Origin: Paludibacter sp. | Lineage (GTDB): Bacteria > Bacteroidota > Bacteroidia > Bacteroidales > Paludibacteraceae | DNA: 33,725 nt | Assembly: GCA_029973975.1 (NCBI GenBank) | Contig: JARKQF010000334.1 | Span: 1-33,725 of the forward strand | Direction of reading: 5' to 3' | Shown: positions 1 through 33,725 of the stretch, one piece after another | Numbering within the stretch: the first letter of the stretch is position 1 | Layout: each line of letters starts with the position of its first letter | The notes under the pieces: model-generated | Databases searched by the model: none | Told to the model about the DNA's origin: nothing | The model's input: only the letters and a program-made list of their open reading frames with translations | Made by a program: the position numbers and the translations under genes

Positions 1-75
1 TGGATAGCCAGCTGTAAAATAAACAGAAAGTATATTTTTTCGCTTCCTGTCGAACAATTGATTGATTCTATTCAT
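1..75 (-). CDS. trpA: Tryptophan synthase alpha chain, 5' part only
   Basis: The first 25 codons of trpA run off the left edge of the window. They translate to MNRINQLFDRKRKN followed by ILSVYFTAGYP; the FTAGYP segment is the conserved first beta strand of the TrpA TIM barrel. The ATG overlaps the trpF stop as ATGA (75-72), indicating translational coupling. TrpA cleaves indole-3-glycerol phosphate to indole and glyceraldehyde 3-phosphate and passes indole to TrpB. It is the last gene of the trpBEGDCFA order seen here, so the pathway from chorismate to tryptophan appears complete at this locus. The rest of the protein is outside the window, so its integrity cannot be judged. Confidence 0.9.
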   Translation of the reverse strand, partial: MNRINQLFDRKRKNILSVYFTAGYP

Positions 76-701
76 AACGAGTTAAGCTGTTTGATAAATT
101 GTTGTAATAACTTATAACTTTTAATAGCCGGAGCAATTTCAAATCTGCTGTTTAAATCCACCCCCCTGAAAAGTGGATGATTTATTTTTTGTATTGCCTG
201 GACATCATCCGGACCAATTCCCCCACTGAGAAAAAAAGGTGTATTTCCATGGTAAGCATCCAGTAAACTCCAGTCGAATTTAGACCCTGAACCACCATAA
301 GATGCCGTCTTTGTATCGAACAAAAAATAATCTACCTGATCGTTATAAAGTAAAGTATCTTCGAAGTCTTCCGCGGCATAAATCTGAAAAGCTTTCAAAA
401 CCAATACACCTTTGTTTCTCAGAGAACGACACAGGACAACAGATTCTTCTCCATGCAGCTGCACGGCCTGTAATTCGTACAATTTGACTTTTTGCATGAT
501 TTCATCTTCAGTAGCATTGACAAAAACCCCGGTTTTTTTTATATTTTGTCCAAACCTGATATTGTTTATTATTGTAGGAGATGTCACATATCTTGAAGAT
601 TTTGGATAGAAAATTAATCCCAGAAAATCAGGGTCCAGGGTTAATATATCGCGTATATTATCCGGCTCCCGCATGCCACATACTTTAATCAAAACATTCA
701 T
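72..701 (-). CDS. trpF: Phosphoribosylanthranilate isomerase
   Basis: A protein of 209 residues, normal for TrpF, which isomerises N-(5-phosphoribosyl)anthranilate to CdRP in cytosolic tryptophan synthesis. The N-terminus MNVLIKVCGMREPDNI carries the KVCGM motif with the catalytic cysteine (residue 8). LFDTKTASYGGSG holds the expected aspartate, and FLSGGIGPDDV with GVDLNSRFE forms the phosphate-binding end of the barrel. GVDLNSRFE replaces the commoner VDVSSGVE, a mild variation. An in-frame ATG six codons upstream (719) is possible, but the shorter start fits the family. It follows trpC by 47 bases and overlaps trpA by four. Confidence 0.95.
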   Translation of the reverse strand: MNVLIKVCGMREPDNIRDILTLDPDFLGLIFYPKSSRYVTSPTIINNIRFGQNIKKTGVFVNATEDEIMQKVKLYELQAVQLHGEESVVLCRSLRNKGVLVLKAFQIYAAEDFEDTLLYNDQVDYFLFDTKTASYGGSGSKFDWSLLDAYHGNTPFFLSGGIGPDDVQAIQKINHPLFRGVDLNSRFEIAPAIKSYKLLQQFIKQLNSL

Positions 702-748
702 ACTATATTTTAACCACATTAGTCATACAAGCACACCTTAGTCAGAAC

Positions 749-1537
749 TTATTTTAACAATTCAAGCCTTTCGATAAACGTTCGTAAAGATTCAGCCGGG
801 TTAAGTTCTTTCATGAAGTTTTCGCCCATCAGGAAACCTTGATATCCTGACACTTTAAGCATATTAACGGTTTCCGGAGAAGAAATGCCGCTTTCGCTGA
901 TTTTGACAAATTTATCCGGAATCAATCCTGCTAATTCAAACGAAACATCCGTGCTCACCTCAAAAGTTTTTAAATTACGGTTATTCACTCCAACCATATC
1001 CACAAAATCATTGATATACACAAGTTCTTCCTTGTTGTGAATTTCAAGCAATACTTCCAGCGACAATGCTTTTGCCTGCCGGGCAAGTTCGAGCGTATCA
1101 CCCACAGTCAACGCTGCTGCTATTAACAGAATCACATCCGCTCCCATTGCTTTTGCTTCAAACAACTGATAAACATCTATCATAAAATCTTTACGCAGAA
1201 TGGGACAATGTACATACGGACGGGCAGCTGTCAAATCTTCAGAAATGCCACCAAAATACTTGCTGTCAGTCAACACCGAAATTCCGGCAGCCCCTGCTTC
1301 GTCGTATCCGGAAGTAACATCCACCACATCGGCTTCTTCGTGTATCCAGCCTTTGGAAGGTGATTTTCTTTTAAACTCCGCAATAACGCCCGATGAGGAA
1401 GAAGTCAACCTATCCTTCAGCGAAATACATTTTCTATTAAAATACGGTGCCGTACGCAAATCATCAATTGTCACCAGTTTTTTACGATTTGCAACTTCTG
1501 TTTTCTTATCTGCAATTATTTTATCTAATATGGTCAT
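749..1537 (-). CDS. trpC: Indole-3-glycerol phosphate synthase
   Basis: This 262-residue protein is a monofunctional IGPS that closes the indole ring by decarboxylating CdRP. Visible signatures are EFKRKSPSKG near residue 54 (catalytic lysine strand), ILRKDFMID (second lysine), GVNNRNLKTFEV and ISESGIS, in the order expected for the TIM barrel. Its ATG overlaps the trpD stop as ATGA (1537-1534), so translation is probably coupled. TrpC and TrpF are separate genes here, unlike the fused enterobacterial enzyme. Confidence 0.96.
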   Translation of the reverse strand: MTILDKIIADKKTEVANRKKLVTIDDLRTAPYFNRKCISLKDRLTSSSSGVIAEFKRKSPSKGWIHEEADVVDVTSGYDEAGAAGISVLTDSKYFGGISEDLTAARPYVHCPILRKDFMIDVYQLFEAKAMGADVILLIAAALTVGDTLELARQAKALSLEVLLEIHNKEELVYINDFVDMVGVNNRNLKTFEVSTDVSFELAGLIPDKFVKISESGISSPETVNMLKVSGYQGFLMGENFMKELNPAESLRTFIERLELLK

Positions 1538-2529
1538 GTGTTGTGGTTTAAAAATTTCCGAAACGCATTCATTGCCGCTCCATTTTGCAGGGATTCCATG
1601 GCTTCTGCCTTACAATCCTCGATTGATTTAAATGGGCAACGGGTTTGAATTGCAAGTGCTGCATTGATTATTACCGCATCTCTTTGTGCTGCCGTTGCCT
1701 TATTTTCAAGCACGTTCAGGAAAATTACCGCGGCATCCTGAACAATCTCACCTCCCCATAATGCCTGTTGCTCTATTTTATTAAAGCCCAATTCCTCAGG
1801 GGTATATACAAACTCGCCGGAGTTGTTTACAATTTTGGCCGTATTAGTCAGCGAGATTTCGTCGTACCCATCCAGACTATGTACAATTGTATATTGAGTA
1901 CCCAAGCGTTGATAAATATAACTATACAACCGCATCATTTTCAGGTTATAAACTCCAAGACATTGATATTTTGGCTGTGCCGGATTAATCAATGGACCCA
2001 GCATATTAAAAAATGTTCGAACACCCAGATTTTTCCTCACCGGCGCCACATGTTTCATGGCAGGATTGAAAACAGGTGCATGCAGATAAGCAAAACCCGA
2101 GCGATCCAAAGAATTTTTCAAAACTGATTCATCAGTAGTAAATTTCACTCCGAAATATTCAAGCACATTAGAGGAACCACTCACAGATGTTGCGCCGTAA
2201 TTTCCATGCTTGGCCACTTTATAACCGGCGCCAGCCACCACAAAACAGGCAGCAGTTGAGATATTGAAAGTGTTTTTCCCATCACCACCTGTTCCCACAA
2301 TATCCATAATCCCGAAGTCCGACAAATCAACCTTCACAGCCATGGAAAGCAGAGCTTCCCTAAAACCGATGATTTCATCCAATTCAATGCTACGCATCAG
2401 ATACACTGAAATAAATGCCGCAATCTGAGCCTCGTTGTACAGTCCAGCCGCCATATTGGTCATCACTTCTGTAGCTTCACTTCTAGTCAAAGACTGATGA
2501 TCAAATAATCTGTTTAATATTTGTTTCAT
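1534..2529 (-). CDS. trpD: Anthranilate phosphoribosyltransferase
   Basis: A protein of 331 residues joining anthranilate to PRPP. The PRPP-binding loop GTGGDGKNTFNIST (from residue 79) and the KHGNYGATSVSGSSN segment are diagnostic of TrpD. It is not fused to the TrpG amidotransferase domain, which is the separate gene just upstream. The start MKQILNRLFDHQSL fits the family's N-terminal helix, and the preceding bases (ATAAATAAAAAAC) are A-rich as usual in Bacteroidetes. The repeat that fills the trpG-trpD gap runs up to this start codon, so it supplies the gene's initiation region. Confidence 0.96.
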   Translation of the reverse strand: MKQILNRLFDHQSLTRSEATEVMTNMAAGLYNEAQIAAFISVYLMRSIELDEIIGFREALLSMAVKVDLSDFGIMDIVGTGGDGKNTFNISTAACFVVAGAGYKVAKHGNYGATSVSGSSNVLEYFGVKFTTDESVLKNSLDRSGFAYLHAPVFNPAMKHVAPVRKNLGVRTFFNMLGPLINPAQPKYQCLGVYNLKMMRLYSYIYQRLGTQYTIVHSLDGYDEISLTNTAKIVNNSGEFVYTPEELGFNKIEQQALWGGEIVQDAAVIFLNVLENKATAAQRDAVIINAALAIQTRCPFKSIEDCKAEAMESLQNGAAMNAFRKFLNHNT

Positions 2530-2634: not shown

Positions 2635-3201
2635 TTACTGTTTCAACCAATTTTTCAACATATCTTCTCCTTCCGGGGTCAACACTGACTCCGGATGGAA
2701 TTGCACACCACGTACATCATACTGTTTATGCGCCAATGCCATGATCATACCTGATTCATCTACTGCTGTTATCTTCAGACAGTCCGGCAAAGATTCTTTT
2801 TCGACCGCCCATGAATGATAACGCCCTACAGTCATTTTCACCGGCAAATTTCTGAACAATACATCCTCTTTCAACACTTGTATTTCAGATGTCACACCAT
2901 GATGCACCTCCGGCAGGTTAATCAACTTACCGCCAAATGCTTCGGCAATAGCTTGTTCGCCAAGACAAATACCCAATATACTTTTATAATTGGCATAAGT
3001 TTTTATTAAATCCAATAGAATTCCCGACTCCGAAGGGATTCCCGGTCCCGGCGACAAGATTATTTTATCAAAACACCCGATATCAGCTAAAGCAATCTGA
3101 TTATTGCGGTGTACTTCAACATCATTATACCCGAGCTTTTTCAGCGCATGTACGATGTTGTAGGTAAAAGAATCGTAATTGTCGAATACTAATATTTTCA
3201 T
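2635..3201 (-). CDS. trpG: Anthranilate synthase glutamine amidotransferase component
   Basis: This 188-residue class I glutamine amidotransferase supplies ammonia to TrpE. The order of motifs is complete: SPGPGIPSESG (oxyanion strand, about residue 50), GICLGEQAIAEAFGG with the nucleophilic cysteine at residue 79, and GVQFHPESVLT with the catalytic histidine and glutamate. GICLGEQ in place of the commoner GxCLGHQ is a small variation also plausible for PabA; the position between trpE and trpD argues for anthranilate synthase, though a shared role with folate synthesis is possible. The start is preceded by an 11-base gap from a micro-ORF (3213-3260). Confidence 0.95.
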   Translation of the reverse strand: MKILVFDNYDSFTYNIVHALKKLGYNDVEVHRNNQIALADIGCFDKIILSPGPGIPSESGILLDLIKTYANYKSILGICLGEQAIAEAFGGKLINLPEVHHGVTSEIQVLKEDVLFRNLPVKMTVGRYHSWAVEKESLPDCLKITAVDESGMIMALAHKQYDVRGVQFHPESVLTPEGEDMLKNWLKQ

Positions 3202-3278: not shown

Positions 3279-3397
3279 GTTTCATATTTTTTATTTATAT
3301 CTAATATATTCCCCTCCAATGAACTGGCGGGCCGGGCGCAAGCATTGCGCCCCTACGCTCTCCACTTTCCGCTATTCTCTATTCGTTATTCGCTATT
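3279..3397. repeat. Intergenic palindromic repeat, copy B (trpE-trpG gap and trpE 3' end)
   Basis: Second copy of the element at 2523-2632. Its palindrome GGGCGCAAGCATTGCGCCC is cleaner (8-bp arms) than in copy A, and the CCCCTCCAATGAACTGG part is also conserved. The tract of ATTCGCTATT/ATTCTCTATT units reaches into trpE, where it encodes the final residues IANNE and the stop. The A/T-rich end carries ATGAAAC as in copy A, but here this opens only a four-codon frame. Confidence 0.75.
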
Positions 3398-4785
3398 TGT
3401 ATCGCTCGTTTCAACGCTGCCAGTTTATTATTCACTTCCTGCAGTTCGCTTTCTTCATCAGATTTCGCCACAACACCAGCTCCGGCCTGATAATAAAGGG
3501 TGTTTTGTTTGCTGACAAATGAACGAATGGTAATGGCCTGATTGAAACTCCCATCAAAACCAATATAACCCAAACAACCTCCGTACGGTCCGCGATCATG
3601 CGGTTCAATTTCATCAATCAATTGCATTGCCCTGATTTTGGGTGCGCCCGACAAAGTTCCGGCCGGAAATGTATCTGCAAAAAGTTTGATAACCTTGGTA
3701 TCCGGCCGGAGTTTTCCGCTGACACTTGATACCAGATGTAACACATGCGAATAATATTGTACTTCCCTGAATACTTCTACCTCCACATTTTCAGTATTAC
3801 GGCTCAGGTCGTTACGGGCCAGATCAACCAGCATTACATGTTCGGCATTTTCCTTTTTATCTTTGCTTAGTCTTTCAGCCAGTTCCAGATCTTTTTCATC
3901 GTCACCGGTACGACGAAAAGTCCCGGCAATCGGTTTGATAAACGCTTTTTGTTTTTTTCCGTCCACTACCAAATGTGCTTCAGGTGAAGAACCAAAAATC
4001 CGGAAATCCCCAAAATTAAAATAGAACAGATAAGGAGAAGGATTAACTGAGCGAAGTGTCCGGTACAACATAAAATCATCGCCCTTGAACCGCTGATAAA
4101 ATCTTCTGGAAAGCACTATCTGAAAAACATTACCCTTGTAACACTCTTCTTTGCCACGCGTTACCATTTTTCTGAAATCATCATCTGAAATATCGCATTT
4201 CTCTTCACCCACCGGCTGAAAACCAAAAGTGGCAACGTTATTATTCAACAGCACTTTCTCTATTACATCAATTTCCGATATATCTCCTTCCTGCAGGTTT
4301 TCAATGATGGTCAATTCATTGTTAAAATGATTGATCGCGATGATATACTTAAACAACACATAATGCAATCCGGGCATTGAACCAGGAACCGTTTCACGTG
4401 CATGAAGTTTCACATCTTCAAAATACTGAACCGACTCGTAGGAGGTATAACCCAACAAGCCATTGATCAGTCCTTTCTCTGTTGACTGCTGAATCAACTC
4501 AAACGATTTCAGAAAAACATCAAAACGATTTGCCACCGTCATTTTATCAACAACTTTCGTTTCAATCATCCGGCCATCCGGATATTCTTCTTTAATCAAA
4601 AAACGATTCACAGAAATCCCTCCAACAGGAGCAAAACCTATATATGAAAAACTATTTTCGGTTCCATGATAGTCCGAACTTTCCAGCAGCACCGAATTGG
4701 TATACAAATCACGTATTTTCAGGTAAATGCCCACAGGTGTCTGCATATCCGCCAGCATTTTCTTCGTATGTACGTATAATTTCAT
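3379..4785 (-). CDS. trpE: Anthranilate synthase component I
   Basis: This 468-residue enzyme converts chorismate and ammonia to anthranilate, with TrpG as partner. LLESSDYH (residues 33-40) contains the LLES element of the tryptophan feedback-inhibition site. The chorismate-binding C-terminal domain shows GNVFQIVLSRRF, IKPIAGTFRRTGDDEKD, ENAEHVMLVDLARNDLSR and the long AGTLSGAPKIRAMQLIDE to GGCLGYIGFDG block. The start at MKLYVHTKK is preferred over an ATG 14 codons upstream because it fits the family and has A-rich upstream sequence (ATTTTTATAGAA). The last few codons are formed by an intergenic repeat tract. It follows trpB by 56 bases containing a perfect palindrome. Confidence 0.96.
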   Translation of the reverse strand: MKLYVHTKKMLADMQTPVGIYLKIRDLYTNSVLLESSDYHGTENSFSYIGFAPVGGISVNRFLIKEEYPDGRMIETKVVDKMTVANRFDVFLKSFELIQQSTEKGLINGLLGYTSYESVQYFEDVKLHARETVPGSMPGLHYVLFKYIIAINHFNNELTIIENLQEGDISEIDVIEKVLLNNNVATFGFQPVGEEKCDISDDDFRKMVTRGKEECYKGNVFQIVLSRRFYQRFKGDDFMLYRTLRSVNPSPYLFYFNFGDFRIFGSSPEAHLVVDGKKQKAFIKPIAGTFRRTGDDEKDLELAERLSKDKKENAEHVMLVDLARNDLSRNTENVEVEVFREVQYYSHVLHLVSSVSGKLRPDTKVIKLFADTFPAGTLSGAPKIRAMQLIDEIEPHDRGPYGGCLGYIGFDGSFNQAITIRSFVSKQNTLYYQAGAGVVAKSDEESELQEVNNKLAALKRAIQIANNE

Positions 4786-4812
4786 TTCTATAAAAATATT
4801 TATTGTTATATT

Positions 4813-4840
4813 GTAGAGACATAGCATGCTATGTCTCTAC
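4813..4840. repeat. Perfect 28-bp palindrome between trpB and trpE
   Basis: The half-site GTAGAGACATAGCA is followed immediately by its exact reverse complement, one base after the trpB stop (4842). The RNA would form a hairpin of about 12 bp with a tiny loop. There is no T-run on the minus strand directly after it, so it is more likely an mRNA-stabilising or REP-like element than a terminator. The GTAGRGRC start is shared with the palindromes at 2603-2613 and 3335-3354, suggesting a related family. Confidence 0.8.
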
Positions 4841-4841
4841 G

Positions 4842-6029
4842 TTATTCGTTTTTCGGCATTTGTTTAATATACGTTTCCATATCCTTATCCCCTCTACCAG
4901 AAACCGTTAATACGACAACATCATCGGATTTAAAGTTTGATCGTTCCTTTTTCAGCACACCCAGCGCATGAGCCGACTCAATAGCAGGAATAATACCTTC
5001 GAGTCTGGTAAGTTCAAATGCCGCATCCAGGGCTTCATCATCGTTAATGGCATGAACCTTTGTCCTACCCATTTCAGCAAAATACGCATGTGCAGGTCCA
5101 ACACCCGGATAATCCAGCCCGGCTGAAATAGAATAAGGTTCAATAATCTGCCCATCCTCATCCTGCATCAACAAAGTTTTGAATCCATGTATAATACCTA
5201 CGGTTCCCACTTGAATAGTTGCAGCGGTTTCACCTGAATCAATACCCAGTCCACCTGCTTCAGCCGAAATAATTTTCACCCTTTCATCATTCAAGTAATG
5301 ATAATATGTTCCCATGGCATTGCTTCCACCACCTACACAAGCAATCAGGTAATCCGGATAATCCCGGTTTATCTGCTCCTTCAATTGTAATTTAATTTCT
5401 TCTGAGATAACCGATTGAAAATAGGCTACTATATCAGGGTATGGGTGTGGACCGACTGTGGATCCAATGATATAGAATGAATCCGGATTTGAGCACCAGT
5501 ACCGAATGGCCTCATTTGTGGCATCCTTGAGCGTCATATTGCCACTGGTAACCGGCTCGACTTTGGCGCCCAGCATATTCATTTTTTGTACATTCAAAAA
5601 TTGTCTGTCCACATCCGTCTTTCCCATAAACACGATGCATTCCATCCCCATAAGTGCGCATGCAGTTGCAGTTGCCACTCCATGCTGTCCGGCACCGGTC
5701 TCAGCAATGATACGCGTTTTCCCCATGCGTTTTGCCAGTAATATTTGACCCAGTGCATTGTTTATTTTATGCGACCCGGTATGATTCAAATCTTCTCTTT
5801 TCAGGTAGATGTTTGTTTCGTATGCGGCTGATAGTCTTTTCGCAAAATACAAAGGAGAAGGCCTTCCTGCATAATGTTTCAGCAAATCGTAATATTCAGC
5901 TTTAAAAGCCGGATCTGCTTTCGCTTCATAGAAAGCAGCTTTTAAACGTTCAACAGAACCATGTAAAATCTCAGGAATGTAAGCTCCCCCGAATGTTCCA
6001 TAATATCCTTTATTATCCGGTTGATTCAT
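4842..6029 (-). CDS. trpB: Tryptophan synthase beta chain
   Basis: A PLP enzyme of 395 residues condensing indole with serine. [15 protein letters not shown] places the Schiff-base lysine at residue 88; [20 protein letters not shown] and the phosphate-binding GGGSNAMG are intact. The reading frame is open further upstream, but those codons cross the attenuator terminator, and the start at [15 protein letters not shown] fits the family. Both trpB and the leader peptide are preceded by the same initiation context, AATATAAAAATGAA. As the first structural gene behind the attenuator it is directly controlled by tryptophan supply. Bacteroidales trp operons commonly begin with trpB. Confidence 0.96.
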
Positions 6030-6089
6030 TTTTATATTGAAATTAGAAGTAGTTTTTATCTTTTGCATACCCATTCGGGCTATATTTTC

Positions 6090-6134
6090 TTTAAAACAAA
6101 AAAGGCTTATCGTGAGTTCCGACAAGCCTTTTCA
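6090..6134 (-). terminator. Attenuator terminator hairpin of the trp operon
   Basis: On the minus strand AAAAGGCTTGTCG (6133-6121) pairs with CGATAAGCCTTTT (6112-6100) over 13 bp including one G-U, with a 7-base loop GAACTCA, and is followed by TTTTTTGTTTT. This is a canonical intrinsic terminator placed between the leader peptide and trpB. The loop and first part of the 3' arm (ACTCACGA, 6117-6110) are perfectly complementary to TCGTGAGT (6177-6170), which overlaps the leader stop codon, giving the mutually exclusive antiterminator. Confidence 0.88.
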
Positions 6135-6169
6135 AATATTGATTAATTTGATAAATACATGTTTATAAC

Positions 6170-6177
6170 ACTCACGA
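6170..6177 (-). promoter_or_regulatory. Antiterminator strand over the leader stop codon
   Basis: The octamer TCGTGAGT contains the TGA stop of the leader peptide (6174-6172). It can pair without mismatch with ACTCACGA at 6117-6110 inside the terminator. A ribosome that reaches the stop would cover it and allow termination; a ribosome stalled at the Trp codons, whose last base lies 18 bases before it, would leave it free. The switching logic is inference from complementarity and spacing. Confidence 0.7.
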
Positions 6178-6231
6178 ACCGAAATTCTGCAAGCGCCACC
6201 ACCAAGCTGTATTTACTAAATTCTGTTTCAT
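6172..6231 (-). CDS. trpL: trp operon leader peptide with three tandem Trp codons
   Basis: A 19-codon frame reading MKQNLVNTAWWWRLQNFGS, with TGG TGG TGG at 6204-6196. Tryptophan is the rarest amino acid, and three in a row in a short frame directly downstream of a promoter and upstream of a terminator and trpB is a strong signature of attenuation. Its start context AATATAAAAATGAA is the same as that of trpB. The predicted transcript start is about 13-15 bases upstream of the ATG. The peptide itself probably has no function; its translation senses charged tRNA-Trp. It is too short for ordinary gene finders. Confidence 0.88.
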   Translation of the reverse strand: MKQNLVNTAWWWRLQNFGS

Positions 6232-6250
6232 TTTTATATTAATTCGACTG

Positions 6251-6282
6251 CAAAGATATAAATGTAATTTTAATTACGCAAA
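6251..6282 (-). promoter_or_regulatory. Promoter of the trp operon
   Basis: TTTG at 6282-6279 and TATCTTTG at 6258-6251, separated by 20 bases, match the Bacteroidetes sigma-ABfr consensus (-33 TTTG, -7 TAnnTTTG). Transcription would begin around 6244-6246. The -33 element is only 18 bases past the infB stop, and no terminator is seen after infB, so some read-through from infB into the trp leader is possible. Confidence 0.82.
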
Positions 6283-6300
6283 TTTAGTTACAATTTTTTA

Positions 6301-9252
6301 TCACAAAGTCTTTTTAACTTCAGTTTCTTCGAAACTTTCAATCATATCACCAACCCGGATGTCGTTGTAATTTTTGATATTCAAACCACATTCATAATTG
6401 GTTCCAACTTCTTTCACATCTTCTTTGAAACGTTTCAGAGATTCGAGTTCGCCTGTATAGATTACAATGCCGTCGCGGATAATGTGCACCTTGTTCGTTC
6501 TCTTAATCTTACCTTCGCGAACGAGACAACCCGCAACCGTACCGACCTTTGTAATTTTAAACACCTCACGCACCTCAACTGTAGCCGTAACTTCCTCCTT
6601 AATTTCAGGAGAAAGCATACCTTCCATTGCCGATTTAATTTCTTCAATGGCATCATAGATAATAGAGTACAAGCGTACATCTATTTCCTCTTTCTCAGCC
6701 ATCTTACGGGCAGAAGCTGTTGGACGTACCTGGAAACCGCAGATAATTGCATTGGATGCAGCCGCCAGCAAAATGTCAGAATCCGAAATCGCCCCTACAG
6801 CCTTATGAATAACATTTATCTGGATATTTTCTGTTGAGAGTTTCAGTAAAGAGTCTGCAAGCGCTTCGACCGAGCCGTCCACATCACCTTTCACAATGAT
6901 ATTCAACTCTTTGAAGTCTCCAAGTGCAATACGGCGACCGAGTTCATCCAGGGTAAAATGCTTCTTGGTACGCAAACTTTGCTCACGTTGTAACTGTTCC
7001 CGTTTATTAGCAATATCACGCGCTTCCTGTTCGGTTGCCATCACATTGAAATTATCACCGGCTTGTGGGGCCCCATTCAAACCAAGAATCAATACCGGCT
7101 CAGCAGGTTTTGCCTCCTGAATACGCTGATTTCTCTCATTAAACATGGCTTTCACCCTGCCGTGATAAATTCCGGCCAACACCACATCTCCCATTTTCAA
7201 GGTACCATTCTCAACAAGCACAGTCGAAATATAACCTCTTCCTTTATCCAGTGATGATTCAATTACCGAACCAACAGCCCGTTTATTCGGATTAGCTTTC
7301 AGATCAAGCATTTCAGCTTCAAGCAATACTTTTTCAAGCAATTCTGCCATTCCGATACCTTGTTTGGCTGAAACATCCTGGGATTGATATTTTCCACCCC
7401 ATTCTTCAACCAAATAATTCATATTAGCCAGCGTTTCCTTTATTTTTTCGGGGTTTGCGCCGGGCTTATCCACCTTATTAATAGCAAAAACCATTGGCAC
7501 ACCGGCAGCAGAAGCGTGATTGATTGCCTCTATTGTTTGTGGCATCACATTATCATCAGCCGCCACAATGATGATCGCGATATCCGTCACCTTGGCACCA
7601 CGGGCACGCATAGCAGTAAATGCTTCGTGACCTGGAGTATCAAGGAAAGTAATACGCTGACCATTATCTAATTTCACATTATAGGCACCGATATGCTGGG
7701 TAATACCACCGGCTTCACCCGCAATCACATTGGTTTTGCGTATATAGTCAAGCAAAGAAGTCTTACCATGGTCAACGTGACCCATCACCGTTACAATCGG
7801 GGCACGCGGCTGCAGATCAGCTTCATCATCCGGTTCGCTTTCACCAATAGCTTCTACCACATCCGCACTCACAAACTCGGTTGTAAATCCGAACTCATCA
7901 GCAACAATATTAATTGTTTCTGCATCGAGACGCTGGTTGATCGAAACCATCATGCCAATACTCATACAAGTGGCAATAACCTGATTAACGGAAATATCCA
8001 TCATTACAGCCAGCTCGCTTACCGTCACAAATTCGGTGAGTTTCAACACCTTTTCCTGTTCGCGCTCCTGCATTTCCAGCTCACTCTGACGGGCTGAAAT
8101 ACTATCTCGTTTTTCCCTGCGATACTTAGCACCCTTACCTTTTTTATTGGTACCGGCCATCCTTGCTAAAGTCTCTTTGATCTGACGTTGTACTTCTTCC
8201 TCATCAACAACTGTTTTCAAAGGTTTCTTAAACTTATCTTTAGCCAGTTTAGCCTGCATGCCGCCAGCCTGAGCCGGCTTTTTAGAATGGTCAACCGGGA
8301 AATGTTCGATATCCACTTTTTGATTTGAGAAACGCTCACGTTTCTTTTTCTTTTTGATATCCTCCTCTGTTTCTACAAAATTCTTTTTCTTCTCATCTAT
8401 CGCATTTTTAGCTTTCTCCTCCCTCTCCTTTTTCTTTTGTTCTTTCGTTTTGGGTTTAGGACGGGTAGTCTGATTCAGCGCATCCAGGTCAATCCGACCC
8501 AACACAACCGGTTTAATTTCAACTACCGGTATAGCGATAGAGAACACTTCATCTTCGTCATTTTTTCCCTGTTCAACTTCAGGTTCACGAGCCTTTTCCA
8601 CAACCACTTGTTTTTCGTCTTCCTGCGAATCAATTTCTTTTGTTGCAACTACTTCGACTTGATCTATTGTTTCAGGTTGTTCTAAAACTTCTACTTCCTG
8701 ATTGTCTTGCGGAACAACCGCCTCAGGACGCTCCTCGACAATTACTTCCTGAACAATTTCAACCTGTTCAGGAACAGGCTCATTAACAACAGGCGTCTCC
8801 ACTTCCTCTTTTTCAACCACTTTAAGTTCTTCAACAGGTTCTATCGTCTTCACCGGTTCTTGTACTGCCGGTTCAGGCTTTACTGGTTCAGGCTTTTTGT
8901 TGATGGCATCCAAATCAATTTTACCAACCTGCTTGATTGAAGGCAGTTGATCGACCGGCACCTCAACGGGGATGATATTTTCTGCTTTCTCTGCTGTTTT
9001 TTTAACGCCATAACCCTCCAACGCAACAGTTGATGCCTTTTCTTTCTGGTGGCGCTCCTGACTGATGCGCTCCGACTCCATTTTCAGAGCCATGTCTTTG
9101 TTGAATTCTTTTACCAATAACAAGTGAAGTTCATCCGACAATTTCAGGTTGGGATCAACGGCAATCTTGTTTCCTTTCTTGGCTAAAAAGTCAACAGCAG
9201 TGGTTATACCGATATTTAATTCTTTACAAGCTTTACTTAATCTGATGGGCAT
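6301..9252 (-). CDS. infB: Translation initiation factor IF-2
   Basis: This 983-residue GTPase delivers initiator fMet-tRNA to the 30S subunit. An IF2 N-terminal module ([15 protein letters not shown]) is followed by a long Val/Glu/Pro-rich linker (about residues 95-250), a Lys/Glu-rich basic stretch, a second helical module ([19 protein letters not shown]), then the G domain: GHVDHGKT (near residue 488), [16 protein letters not shown]. The C-terminal domains end with [16 protein letters not shown]-like IF-2 sequence. Length exceeds the E. coli protein because of the linker, usual in Bacteroidetes. It is the last gene of the rimP-nusA-infB operon, 81 bases behind nusA. Confidence 0.97.
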
Positions 9253-9333
9253 GTTATAATCTATAATTTTTTAAGTAAGTTATACGAAATGGAAGCAGAA
9301 AGCGACACGCAAAATATCATTTTTTACGAAAGC

Positions 9334-10599
9334 CTACATTTCTGTTTCTTCTTCAAATTCAGCGCGTAAAATAGCAAGCACTTCATCTATAGTTTCTTCC
9401 TCAAGGTCTGTTCTTCTGATCAAATCCTGACGCGGAACAGCAAGTACACTCTTAGCTGTATCATAACCTATATTTTTGAAGGCGTCAATTACCCACTGTT
9501 CTATTTCATCATTGAATTCATCCAGGTAGATATCTTCTGTTTCTTCTTCATCATCCAGCTCGCGGTAAACATCCAGGGTGTAGCCTGTCAGCATGCTGGC
9601 CAGCTTAATATTCAACCCTCCTTTACCGATTGCCTGTGAAACTTCTTCCGGCTTCATGTAGATTTCAGCTTTTTTATCAGCTTCACTTAAACGGATTGAA
9701 GAAATCTTGGCCGGACTTAATGAACGCTGGATAAAAAGACTGATGTTGTTGGTAAAATTAATTACATCAATATTTTCATTCCGCAACTCACGTACAATAC
9801 CATGGATTCGGGAACCTTTAACTCCCACACAGGCGCCAACCGGATCGATACGGTCATCATAAGACTCAACGGCCACCTTAGCCCTTTCACCCGGCATACG
9901 GGCAATTTTCTTGATGGTTATCAATCCTTCGTTGATCTCGGGAACTTCCAGTTCGAACAATCTTTCCAGAAAAACCGGAGATACCCTCGAAAGAATAATT
10001 TTAGGATTATTGTTTTTGTTTTCCACCATAGCTACAACTGCACGAACCGTATCTCCTTTGCGATAGAAATCTGATGGAATCTGCTCGGATTTCGGCAAAT
10101 ATAACTCATTACCTTCATCATCAATCAGTAACATTTCCTTCTTCCATATCTGATATAATTCAGCACTGACGATCTGTCCCACTTTCTCACTGTATTTGGC
10201 AAATACGTTTTCCTTCTGAAGTTCCAGAATCTTGGATGATAAAGTTTGTCTGAGATTCAAAATCGCCCTGCGACCAAAACTCATGAAATCAACCGTGTCG
10301 GTCACTTCCTCACCTACTTCATAATCTTCATCGATTTTTTTCGCATCAGAGAGTTTAATTTCCAGATTATCATCTTCAAACTCATCATCCTCAACTACTG
10401 TACGGTTGCGATAAATTTCGAAGTCACCCTTATCCGGATTGATAATCACGTCGTAATTATCGTCACTTCCGAACATCTTCGCGATTACACTTCTGAAAGA
10501 CTCTTCCATTACGGAAATCAGCGTGGTTCTGTCGATACTTTTCAACTCCTTGAATTCCGAAAAGGTATCGATCAAGTTAATCGTTTCTTTTTTGCTCAT
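9334..10599 (-). CDS. nusA: Transcription termination/antitermination factor NusA
   Basis: NusA binds RNA polymerase and RNA to modulate pausing, termination and rRNA antitermination. The 421-residue protein has the N-terminal RNAP-binding domain, an S1 segment (KVGQIVSAELYQIWKKEMLL), then two KH domains: DPVGACVGVKGSRIHGIVRELRNENIDV and EVSQAIGKGGLNIKLASMLTG. The C-terminus is a single short acidic region, so the pair of acidic repeats found in E. coli is absent, as is usual outside gamma-proteobacteria. It lies three bases after rimP, in the conserved rimP-nusA-infB arrangement. Confidence 0.96.
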   Translation of the reverse strand: MSKKETINLIDTFSEFKELKSIDRTTLISVMEESFRSVIAKMFGSDDNYDVIINPDKGDFEIYRNRTVVEDDEFEDDNLEIKLSDAKKIDEDYEVGEEVTDTVDFMSFGRRAILNLRQTLSSKILELQKENVFAKYSEKVGQIVSAELYQIWKKEMLLIDDEGNELYLPKSEQIPSDFYRKGDTVRAVVAMVENKNNNPKIILSRVSPVFLERLFELEVPEINEGLITIKKIARMPGERAKVAVESYDDRIDPVGACVGVKGSRIHGIVRELRNENIDVINFTNNISLFIQRSLSPAKISSIRLSEADKKAEIYMKPEEVSQAIGKGGLNIKLASMLTGYTLDVYRELDDEEETEDIYLDEFNDEIEQWVIDAFKNIGYDTAKSVLAVPRQDLIRRTDLEEETIDEVLAILRAEFEEETEM

Positions 10600-21273: not shown

Positions 21274-21344
21274 AGGTACTTGGCGGATTCGAACCGCCGT
21301 AGACGGTTTTGCAGACCGGTGCCTAACCACTCGGCCAAAGTACC
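21274..21344 (-). tRNA. tRNA-Cys (anticodon GCA)
   Basis: A 71-base cloverleaf. The acceptor arms GGTACTT and AAGTACC pair over 7 bp with discriminator T, as in other tRNA-Cys. D arm: GCCGAGTGGTTAGGC; anticodon loop CTGCAAA with GCA at 21312-21310; T arm GGCGG-TTCGAAT-CCGCC. The 3' CCA is not encoded. It has its own promoter at 21361-21391 and is apparently a single-gene transcript. Confidence 0.96.
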
Positions 21345-33287: not shown

Positions 33288-33297
33288 CTTAAAAAAA

Positions 33298-33407
33298 ACG
33301 GCGGCTATCTACTCTCCCACTTTTACGCAGTACCATCGACGTGACCGGGCTTAACTACTCTGTTCGGAATGGGAAGAGGTGGAACCCCGGTGCTATAACC
33401 ACCTGAA
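33298..33407 (-). rRNA. rrf: 5S ribosomal RNA
   Basis: About 110 bases with recognisable Bacteroidetes 5S features: GGTGGTTATAGCACCGGGG at the 5' end, CCACCTCTTCCCATTCCGAAC, GAACAGAGTAGTTAAGCCCG and the 3' GTGGGAGAGTAGATAGCCGCC. The outer helix GGTGGTTA/TAGCCGCC pairs over 8 bp with two G-U pairs. Ends are estimated to within a few bases. It follows 23S by about 200 bases of A/T-rich spacer. Confidence 0.93.
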
Positions 33408-33605
33408 AACTGGTTGACTATTGTAAAGAAGAGAAATATCAGTTCCTGTCCTTTCGGGATAAAATTAATCTTAACCGACCTGTACAATACCATAATATCG
33501 TTCATTGTTAATACTCCATTACCAACACCTTTTTTTACAATCGGCGATGACCTATGAAGTATCTTTCTGTTTTGTGTCTTCTCTTATTCGAAAAAACCAC
33601 GCTAA
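33408..33605. other. 23S-5S internal spacer
   Basis: About 200 bases of A/T-rich sequence between the two rRNA genes on the minus strand. I find no tRNA, no open frame worth keeping and no convincing promoter in it; it is probably processed away after transcription. Confidence 0.7.
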
Positions 33606-33725
33606 AAAAGCTTATCGGGCAATTAGTATTACTCGGCTTTACATTTCTGTTGTACACCTGTAACCTATCAACGTGGTAGTCTTCCACGACCCTCAAAAAA
33701 GAAATCTAATCTTGAAGATGGCTTC
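33606..33725 (-). rRNA. rrl: 23S ribosomal RNA, 3' end (partial)
   Basis: About 120 bases of the 23S 3' end continue past the right edge. Read on the minus strand, GGGTCGTGGAAGACTACCAC, GTTGATAGGTTACAGGTGTA and CCGAGTAATACTAATTGCCC match the universally conserved end of 23S rRNA. The 3' end is put near 33606, by similarity of the last helix. The rest of the operon (tRNAs, 16S) should lie to the right of the window. Confidence 0.9.

Follow-up and report, generated by a model that had tools for sequence, protein, structure and literature searches.

A predicted tryptophan-sensing, ribosome-mediated attenuator upstream of trpB in Paludibacter and related Bacteroidetes

The leader region upstream of trpB in a Paludibacter sp. 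genome is very probably a Trp-sensing, ribosome-mediated transcription attenuator with a transient antiterminator. It lies in a contig stretch of 33,725 nucleotides (hereafter the window), on the minus strand of which positions 6098-6282 hold a predicted promoter, a leader ORF, an octamer over the stop codon of this ORF and a terminator, followed by the genes trpB-E-G-D-C-F. Sequence comparisons show that the leader with its Trp codons and the terminator are conserved and that one base pair of the putative antiterminator undergoes a matched change; the order of events that we propose for the switch comes from folding models. Attenuators of this type are recognized by a leader ORF carrying codons for the sensed amino acid, a terminator and an antiterminator that exclude each other, and an operon of the cognate pathway, and all of these are found here by computation. 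The original prediction, that all parts for ribosome-mediated attenuation are present in front of trpB, continues to offer the best reading of the region.

The trp leader and operon in the Paludibacter window

The features of the element and the operon are as follows:

6251..6282, minus strand: predicted promoter of the Bacteroidetes type, with TTTG (6282-6279), a 20-bp spacer and TATCTTTG (6258-6251)
6172..6231, minus strand: leader ORF MKQNLVNTAWWWRLQNFGS, 19 codons and TGA (ATG 6231-6229, stop 6174-6172)
6196..6204, minus strand: three Trp codons (codons 10-12), TGGTGGTGG, the putative sensor, aligned in alignment A1 (see below)
6151..6216, minus strand: 1:2 hairpin of the MFE folds, between the stretch of Trp codons and the region of the stop codon
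6170..6177, minus strand: segment 2, the octamer TCGTGAGT over codon 19 and the stop, predicted 5' half of the antiterminator
6110..6117, minus strand: segment 3, ACTCACGA, predicted 3' half of the antiterminator, spanning the 3' side of the terminator loop and the uppermost 3 nt of the 3' arm
6098..6132, minus strand: intrinsic terminator, with a 13-bp stem (6132-6120 with 6112-6100, one G-U), a 7-nt loop and TTTTTT at 6103-6098
4842..6029, minus strand: trpB (PALP domain), first gene of the putatively regulated operon
3379-4827, minus strand: trpE (Anth_synt_I_N and chorismate binding domains)
2635-3201, minus strand: trpG (GATase)
1534-2529, minus strand: trpD (Glycos_transf_3)
749-1537, minus strand: trpC (IGPS)
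72-719, minus strand: trpF (PRAI)

The trp genes were named from these Pfam domains plus gene order. The window trpB is 92-93% identical to that of the MAGs L032-L034 (two Paludibacter sp. and one Bacteroidetes bacterium), which points to a Paludibacter-like host. Directly upstream of the operon lie infB and nusA (6301-10599), with the end of infB at 6301; the window additionally contains a tRNA gene (21274-21344) and a 5S rRNA with the end of a 23S rRNA (33296-33725).

The 160-nt leader folds at -46.0 kcal/mol, as against a mean of -26.1 kcal/mol for shuffled sequences (z -5.9; 0 of 200 shuffles reach this value). The 13-bp terminator with a T-run that had been predicted in front of trpB was found at its proposed location. 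The further claim of an 8-base sequence over the stop codon pairing perfectly with this terminator also holds in the window, where TCGTGAGT (6177-6170) is the exact reverse complement of ACTCACGA (6117-6110), with 52 nt between the two. Given the presence of the 1:2 hairpin in the MFE folds, the untranslated RNA is also predicted to terminate.

The promoter proposed upstream of the leader is likewise present in the form TTTG-N20-TATCTTTG, a pattern that we take to be the Bacteroidetes promoter consensus. This consensus matches the window three times against 0.18 expected, a count reached in 0 of 100 shuffles. Among 85 leaders a strict pattern (TTG-N18-22-TAnnTTTG, at most 110 nt upstream of the leader ATG) is found in 45, and its failure in the other 40 can by eye be traced mostly to deviations at the start of the -7 box. 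A looser pattern (TTG-N21-27-TTTGY, at most 60 nt upstream) is seen in 75 of the 85, which is weak evidence.

Conservation of the leader peptide

The 19-codon WWW peptide was found where it had been predicted. TGGTGGTGG has its sole copy in the window here; as at least one copy arises in 16 of 100 shuffled windows, it is not significant alone. The best, and decisive, evidence against chance is the conservation of the leader in relatives. Using as the criterion an ATG-initiated ORF of 8-40 codons holding WW, we detected a WW or WWW leader in front of trpB in 72 of the 81 loci compared, namely the window and 80 trpB loci from contigs of relatives, and across the aligned relatives the Trp codons are kept while other residues of the peptide change. 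Of the nine loci without a WW leader, four (L035, L057, L084, L097) have too little upstream sequence. In L067 the element is intact about 200 nt upstream of trpB with a single Trp codon (NACLWRF, by eye), and this is possibly a decaying or retuned sensor. The remaining four, L069, L075, L086 and L108, have sufficient upstream sequence and show no leader. These come from one Candidatus Symbiothrix and three Dysgonamonadaceae, and control may have been lost in symbionts.

Sensing of Tyr or Phe was considered and set aside: F or Y precedes the Trp codons in many relatives (e.g. NTYWWW, FFWW), yet Ala is found there in the window and in L085, L092, L095, L098 and L105. In codon-wise folding most of these F/Y residues lie beyond the sensing stretch or just at its border.

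Covariation in the terminator and the putative antiterminator

Removal of 14 duplicates from 100 leaders left 86, of which 68 were retained in alignment A1; the exclusions are seven leaders whose hairpin calls were odd or whose peptides were frame-extended (L028, L110, L107, L059, L103, L094, L081) and 11 near-identical ones. The terminator is paired in 99.1% of 748 cells of this alignment (slid controls 27-58%), and 9 of its 11 pairs show double changes, against a shuffled mean of 5.0 and with 0 of 500 shuffles reaching this count. The putative antiterminator is paired in 88.4% of 542 cells (slid controls 26-48%) and shows 27 double-change cells versus 8.9 in shuffles, which is again reached by 0 of 500. 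In the key pair, that of columns 120:232, 49 of the 68 rows have GC and 19 have AU, with none unpaired; a second pair, that of columns 122:230, is GC in 55, GU in 5, AU in 3 and unpaired in 4. The number of antiterminator pairs with double changes, three, is reached by 184 of 500 shuffles, and that of further pair types, eight, by 451 of 500. The eighth pair of the octamer (T6170-A6117) is not conserved, being unpaired in 52 of 67 readable rows. As for the 1:2 hairpin, 96% of the A1 cells are paired in its inner helix (CUUAC with GUGAG), and 61% and 67% in the two outer helices; covariation in this hairpin is weak, with 266 of 500 shuffles reaching its double-change pairs, 98 of 500 its pair types and 4 of 500 its score.

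In 46 of the 86 rows the heptamer with the best match begins 3 nt ahead of the stop codon, and in 4 more it begins 4 nt ahead, which places the stop codon itself inside the pairing and makes its second letter the base in pair 120:232. A TGA stop is accompanied by CTCACGA, and a TAA stop by CTTACGA or its G-U and shifted variants. A further 15 of the 86 rows have the heptamer beginning 3-4 nt past the first stop-codon base. The other rows have it at different positions, for the most part upstream, with weak matches among them. In a trpB tree of 74 rows, from which 12 of the 86 without a readable base on one or both sides were left out, each base of the GC/AU pair changes three times and the two bases agree in all 74. 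This count includes a re-reading of rows L051 and L053, before which 72 of 74 agreed with 4 versus 3 changes. An independent-pairs test on this tree yields two supported pairs, both in agreement (p 0.5; two of three prior to the re-reading), and is unable to reach significance; the GC/AU changes on the tree are few.

Shuffle and swap controls were run on 112 non-redundant rows of 130. The complementarity of the stop region to the terminator loop and 3' arm exceeds that of 95% of letter shuffles in 81 of the 112 rows (54 of 73 in the Bacteroidales set and 27 of 39 in the phylum set). When stop regions are instead exchanged between rows, a row's own score beats 95% of those swapped in for only 14 of the 112, partly because most rows share one heptamer, for which this control is uninformative. 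Of 27 chosen rows shown individually, seven beat 95% of the swapped-in regions. Swapped-in stop regions reach the row's own score in 0 of 111 cases for L184, 0 of 110 for L179 and L186, 0 of 110-111 for L188, 1 of 111 for L185, 1 of 104 for L095 and 2 of 111 for L189. In L184, L179, L186, L188, L185 and L189 the letters of the stop region and the loop are unlike those of Paludibacter and nevertheless match each other; other matches from beyond the order, such as L174, L176, L180 and L183, do not stand out. By its own terms the original prediction would be contradicted by close relatives that had lost the Trp codons or one or other of the pairings; the relatives instead retain the leader in the great majority of loci (72 of 81) and show compensatory change in the terminator and a matched change at one pair of the putative antiterminator.

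Predicted folding and a proposed mechanism

Folds were computed with the leading edge of the ribosome 12-13 nt past the first A-site base and with the RNA exposed to various points, both settings being assumed. With 4 bases of the 3' arm beyond the antiterminator exposed, the window leader has a P(antiterminator) of 0.85-0.98 for A-site codons 9-15 and of at most 0.03 for A-site positions outside this range. P(terminator) is 0.97 at the stop codon, 0.99 without a ribosome and at least 0.88 for any codon outside 9-15. For codons 10-12 the dominance of the antiterminator lasts until 5 bases of the 3' arm are exposed. Full exposure of this arm makes the terminator the more stable structure in every case tried, that of a stalled ribosome included, so that the antiterminator would have to act kinetically, before the polymerase clears the T-run; this is the weakest step of the mechanism. 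Ten leaders were picked from the 86: in nine the P(antiterminator) exceeds 0.5 for one or more of the Trp codons, and in each of the ten the P(terminator) at the stop is 0.90 or higher; L102 forms no antiterminator and L095 forms it only at the third Trp codon.

Based on these folds the switch probably operates as follows. RNA polymerase would start shortly upstream of the leader ATG and a ribosome would begin the 19-codon leader. With ample Trp-tRNA the ribosome would reach the stop codon and cover TCGTGAGT, allowing the terminator to form and transcription to end near 6098. With scarce Trp-tRNA, a stall on codons 10-12 would break the 1:2 hairpin and free TCGTGAGT about 20 nt ahead, which could then pair with ACTCACGA once the loop of the terminator and the start of its 3' arm have emerged. 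If this pairing holds until the polymerase is past the T-run, trpB-E-G-D-C-F would be transcribed. In an untranslated leader the 1:2 hairpin would stay, keeping the octamer from the antiterminator, and the terminator would win.

Alternative explanations

The region might merely contain a constitutive terminator, such as that of the infB 3' end, and a short ORF arisen by chance, with trpB being transcribed from another promoter. The end of infB at 6301, just upstream, and the presence of TGGTGGTGG by itself in 16 of 100 shuffled windows lend this view some credence. However, leader and terminator are also kept in loci that show no infB ahead of them: only L032-L034 have an infB match before trpB, and none was found in the other 77 of the 80 trpB loci, within the 2 kb or less that each offers upstream. 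Moreover, the stop region and the terminator loop change together, and we therefore regard a constitutive terminator as very unlikely. Even less probable, in our estimate, is a leader sensing a metabolite or protein (riboswitch, TRAP-like or T-box-like) with an incidental peptide. It would account for a strongly structured leader (z -5.9), but not for Trp codons that are kept while other peptide residues change, and no T-box or riboswitch family was detected at its gathering score in the window or at E 10 in 5950-6350.

The alternative that retains somewhat more plausibility, though it too is unlikely, accepts attenuation by the same leader and attributes the flip to the 1:2 hairpin alone or another fold, the octamer-loop pairing being a by-product of sequence common to the octamer and the 5' arm of the terminator. 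The TCG of the octamer indeed repeats the top of this arm, so that part of the complementarity comes free, the high scores of L188 and L189 rest mainly on such mimicry of the terminator arm, and independent compensatory events are few. Against this, the loop letters ACTCA are not needed by the terminator and yet match the stop region, and rows with unrelated letters (L184, L179, L186, L185, L095) still match into the loop.

Distribution across the Bacteroidetes

A model of the whole element including the terminator (R1) matches 82 of 149 related genomes at E 0.001, versus 49 of 149 for the existing Rfam model RF01692 (see below), although the 82 take in weak matches, of which one or more (L178) lack a Trp leader, as well as genomes that trained R1. 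Annotation with the Rfam model hence probably misses many such elements. At the same threshold R1 matches 45 of 296 genomes spread over the phylum. We examined 50 R1 matches, 29 in loci of the phylum search and 21 in 20 stretches chosen mostly among weak or second matches. An ATG-initiated leader with WW is present in 43, WRWRW in one (L179), a WW frame lacking an ATG, at the end of a contig, in one (L190) and a His leader in one (L195). The remaining four (L178, L193, L196, L197) lack a Trp leader and were set aside as apparently terminator-only. The adjacent gene in the 29 phylum loci is trpE in 27, trpB in L148 and trpD in L175, and trpD is also found in the chosen stretches L192 and L194. 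In L179, L182, L184, L186, L188 and L189, likewise among the chosen stretches, the Trp leaders precede a distant trpB, 28-33% identical to that of the window and presumably TrpB2-like, which suggests that the attenuator accompanies different trpB paralogues. L181 (1550-1840, minus strand; G095:C131) contains two complete WWW leaders in tandem before trpE, each with its own terminator. The overall distribution suggests that the classic logic of amino-acid attenuation is widespread in Bacteroidetes.

We offer as a possible, albeit tentative, generalization that the trp attenuators of this phylum, whether before trpB, trpE, trpD or the distant trpB, use a distinct kinetic antiterminator, in which the stop-codon octamer captures the loop and the upper 3' arm of the terminator, in place of its 5' arm, as the polymerase crosses the T-run. 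In such a scheme the stop codon (TGA or TAA) would be a pairing element that changes with the loop and is masked by the ribosome at the stop. If true, the kinetic stop-codon antiterminator would represent a hitherto undescribed form of attenuation with a phylum-wide spread.

Leaders for other amino acids

The genome of the window also encodes a branched-chain leader, MSVRLFNIVALIVVVLLVNHQG, with a -16 kcal/mol terminator directly upstream of ilvD (L116, 1199-1400, plus strand; G000:C227), and by our criteria similar leaders occur in 15 of 25 loci of related genomes, its own genome included. By eye, pairing is possible between GGTGAG over the TGA stop of this leader and CTCACC in the loop and upper 5' arm of the terminator; the leader seems to use the same stop-codon trick as the trp leader, on the other terminator arm. 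The surroundings of hisG and pheA in the same genome (one match per gene), scanned for three like residues in a row or for six Ile/Leu/Val, yielded no cognate leader with a strong terminator. Elsewhere, L195 (1482-1628, minus strand; G334:C1) contains a His leader, MNNSLVINNHHHHHVISTMRGRFMF, and a terminator upstream of an ORF that by eye resembles hisG, and the phylum search returned weak matches alongside this case in G259, G342 and G224.

Comparison with known families

The attenuator belongs to a kind that is already known, and its family was catalogued in 2010. Bacteroid-trp appears in Table 1 of Weinberg et al. 2010 (PMC2864571) as an RNA ('y') of Bacteroidetes that is cis-regulatory ('y') and not a switch ('n'). 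A 2019 study reports Bacteroid-trp upstream of the Flavobacterium psychrophilum trp operon and, by analogy with E. coli, describes a Trp-enriched peptide and structures for termination and antitermination (PMC6414381), and a 2021 transcriptome of the same organism finds strong clues for leader-peptide attenuation before amino-acid operons (PMC9723704). The accessible text of a B. thetaiotaomicron map notes sORFs resembling leader peptides, and the word tryptophan was not found in it (PMC7366714); that of PMC4833913 yielded no trp material on Bacteroidetes. A 2010 survey considered leader-peptide systems to be known only in Proteobacteria and Actinobacteria, besides its own finding in Firmicutes (PMC2965389). 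In the openly searchable main texts we found no description of the octamer-loop pairing, and we do not claim it as unpublished.

The suspicion voiced in the original prediction that a Bacteroidetes trp leader might already be catalogued proved right, and the Rfam search that it proposed recovered the family in question. In a 401-base cmscan search the element matches RF01692 Bacteroid-trp ('Bacteroidete tryptophan peptide leader RNA') over the full length of the model (1-131) with 42.1 bits and E 0.001. As this falls below the gathering score of 49 bits, the match is absent from the default scan and the element is a divergent relative of RF01692, not an Rfam member. In the 149 related genomes RF01692 is above its cut-off in 33, several of them of the same genus. 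Of 30 loci fetched with it, 29 have trpB and L018 is cut short; a WW leader is present in 28 of these 29 trpB loci, and L023 has a WWW leader further upstream. This set overlaps with the 81 trpB loci, with 14 duplicates among the 100 rows. Both RF01692 and the window element lie directly upstream of a trp operon, and the Trp codons align to UGGuGGUGg of the model. The window forms a hairpin in the 1:2 stretch of the model, with many of the model pairs being non-standard there and the A1 covariation being weak. The 131-position model ends in the 5' arm of the terminator (consensus AAAAAGGCUUGUC), and consequently holds neither the full terminator nor the antiterminator.

Two further families resemble the element at scores below their cut-offs. 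The trpB motif RF04312, a cis-regulatory family likewise named for trpB, gives 20.4 bits over 6169-6093 (gathering score 59), and the enterobacterial Trp_leader RF00513 gives 14.2 bits (gathering score 41). The latter follows a like logic of Trp codons, 1:2 hairpin, antiterminator and terminator. In the textbook enterobacterial scheme with its Trp codons, 1:2 hairpin and terminator, the antiterminator takes the 5' arm of the terminator, whereas in the window it is predicted to take the loop and 3' arm. This anatomy, a stop-codon octamer paired to the terminator loop and 3' arm, may be the new part of the system, and it provides a testable mechanism for a family to which the portions of the literature covered otherwise give no more than a table entry or an account by analogy with E. 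coli.
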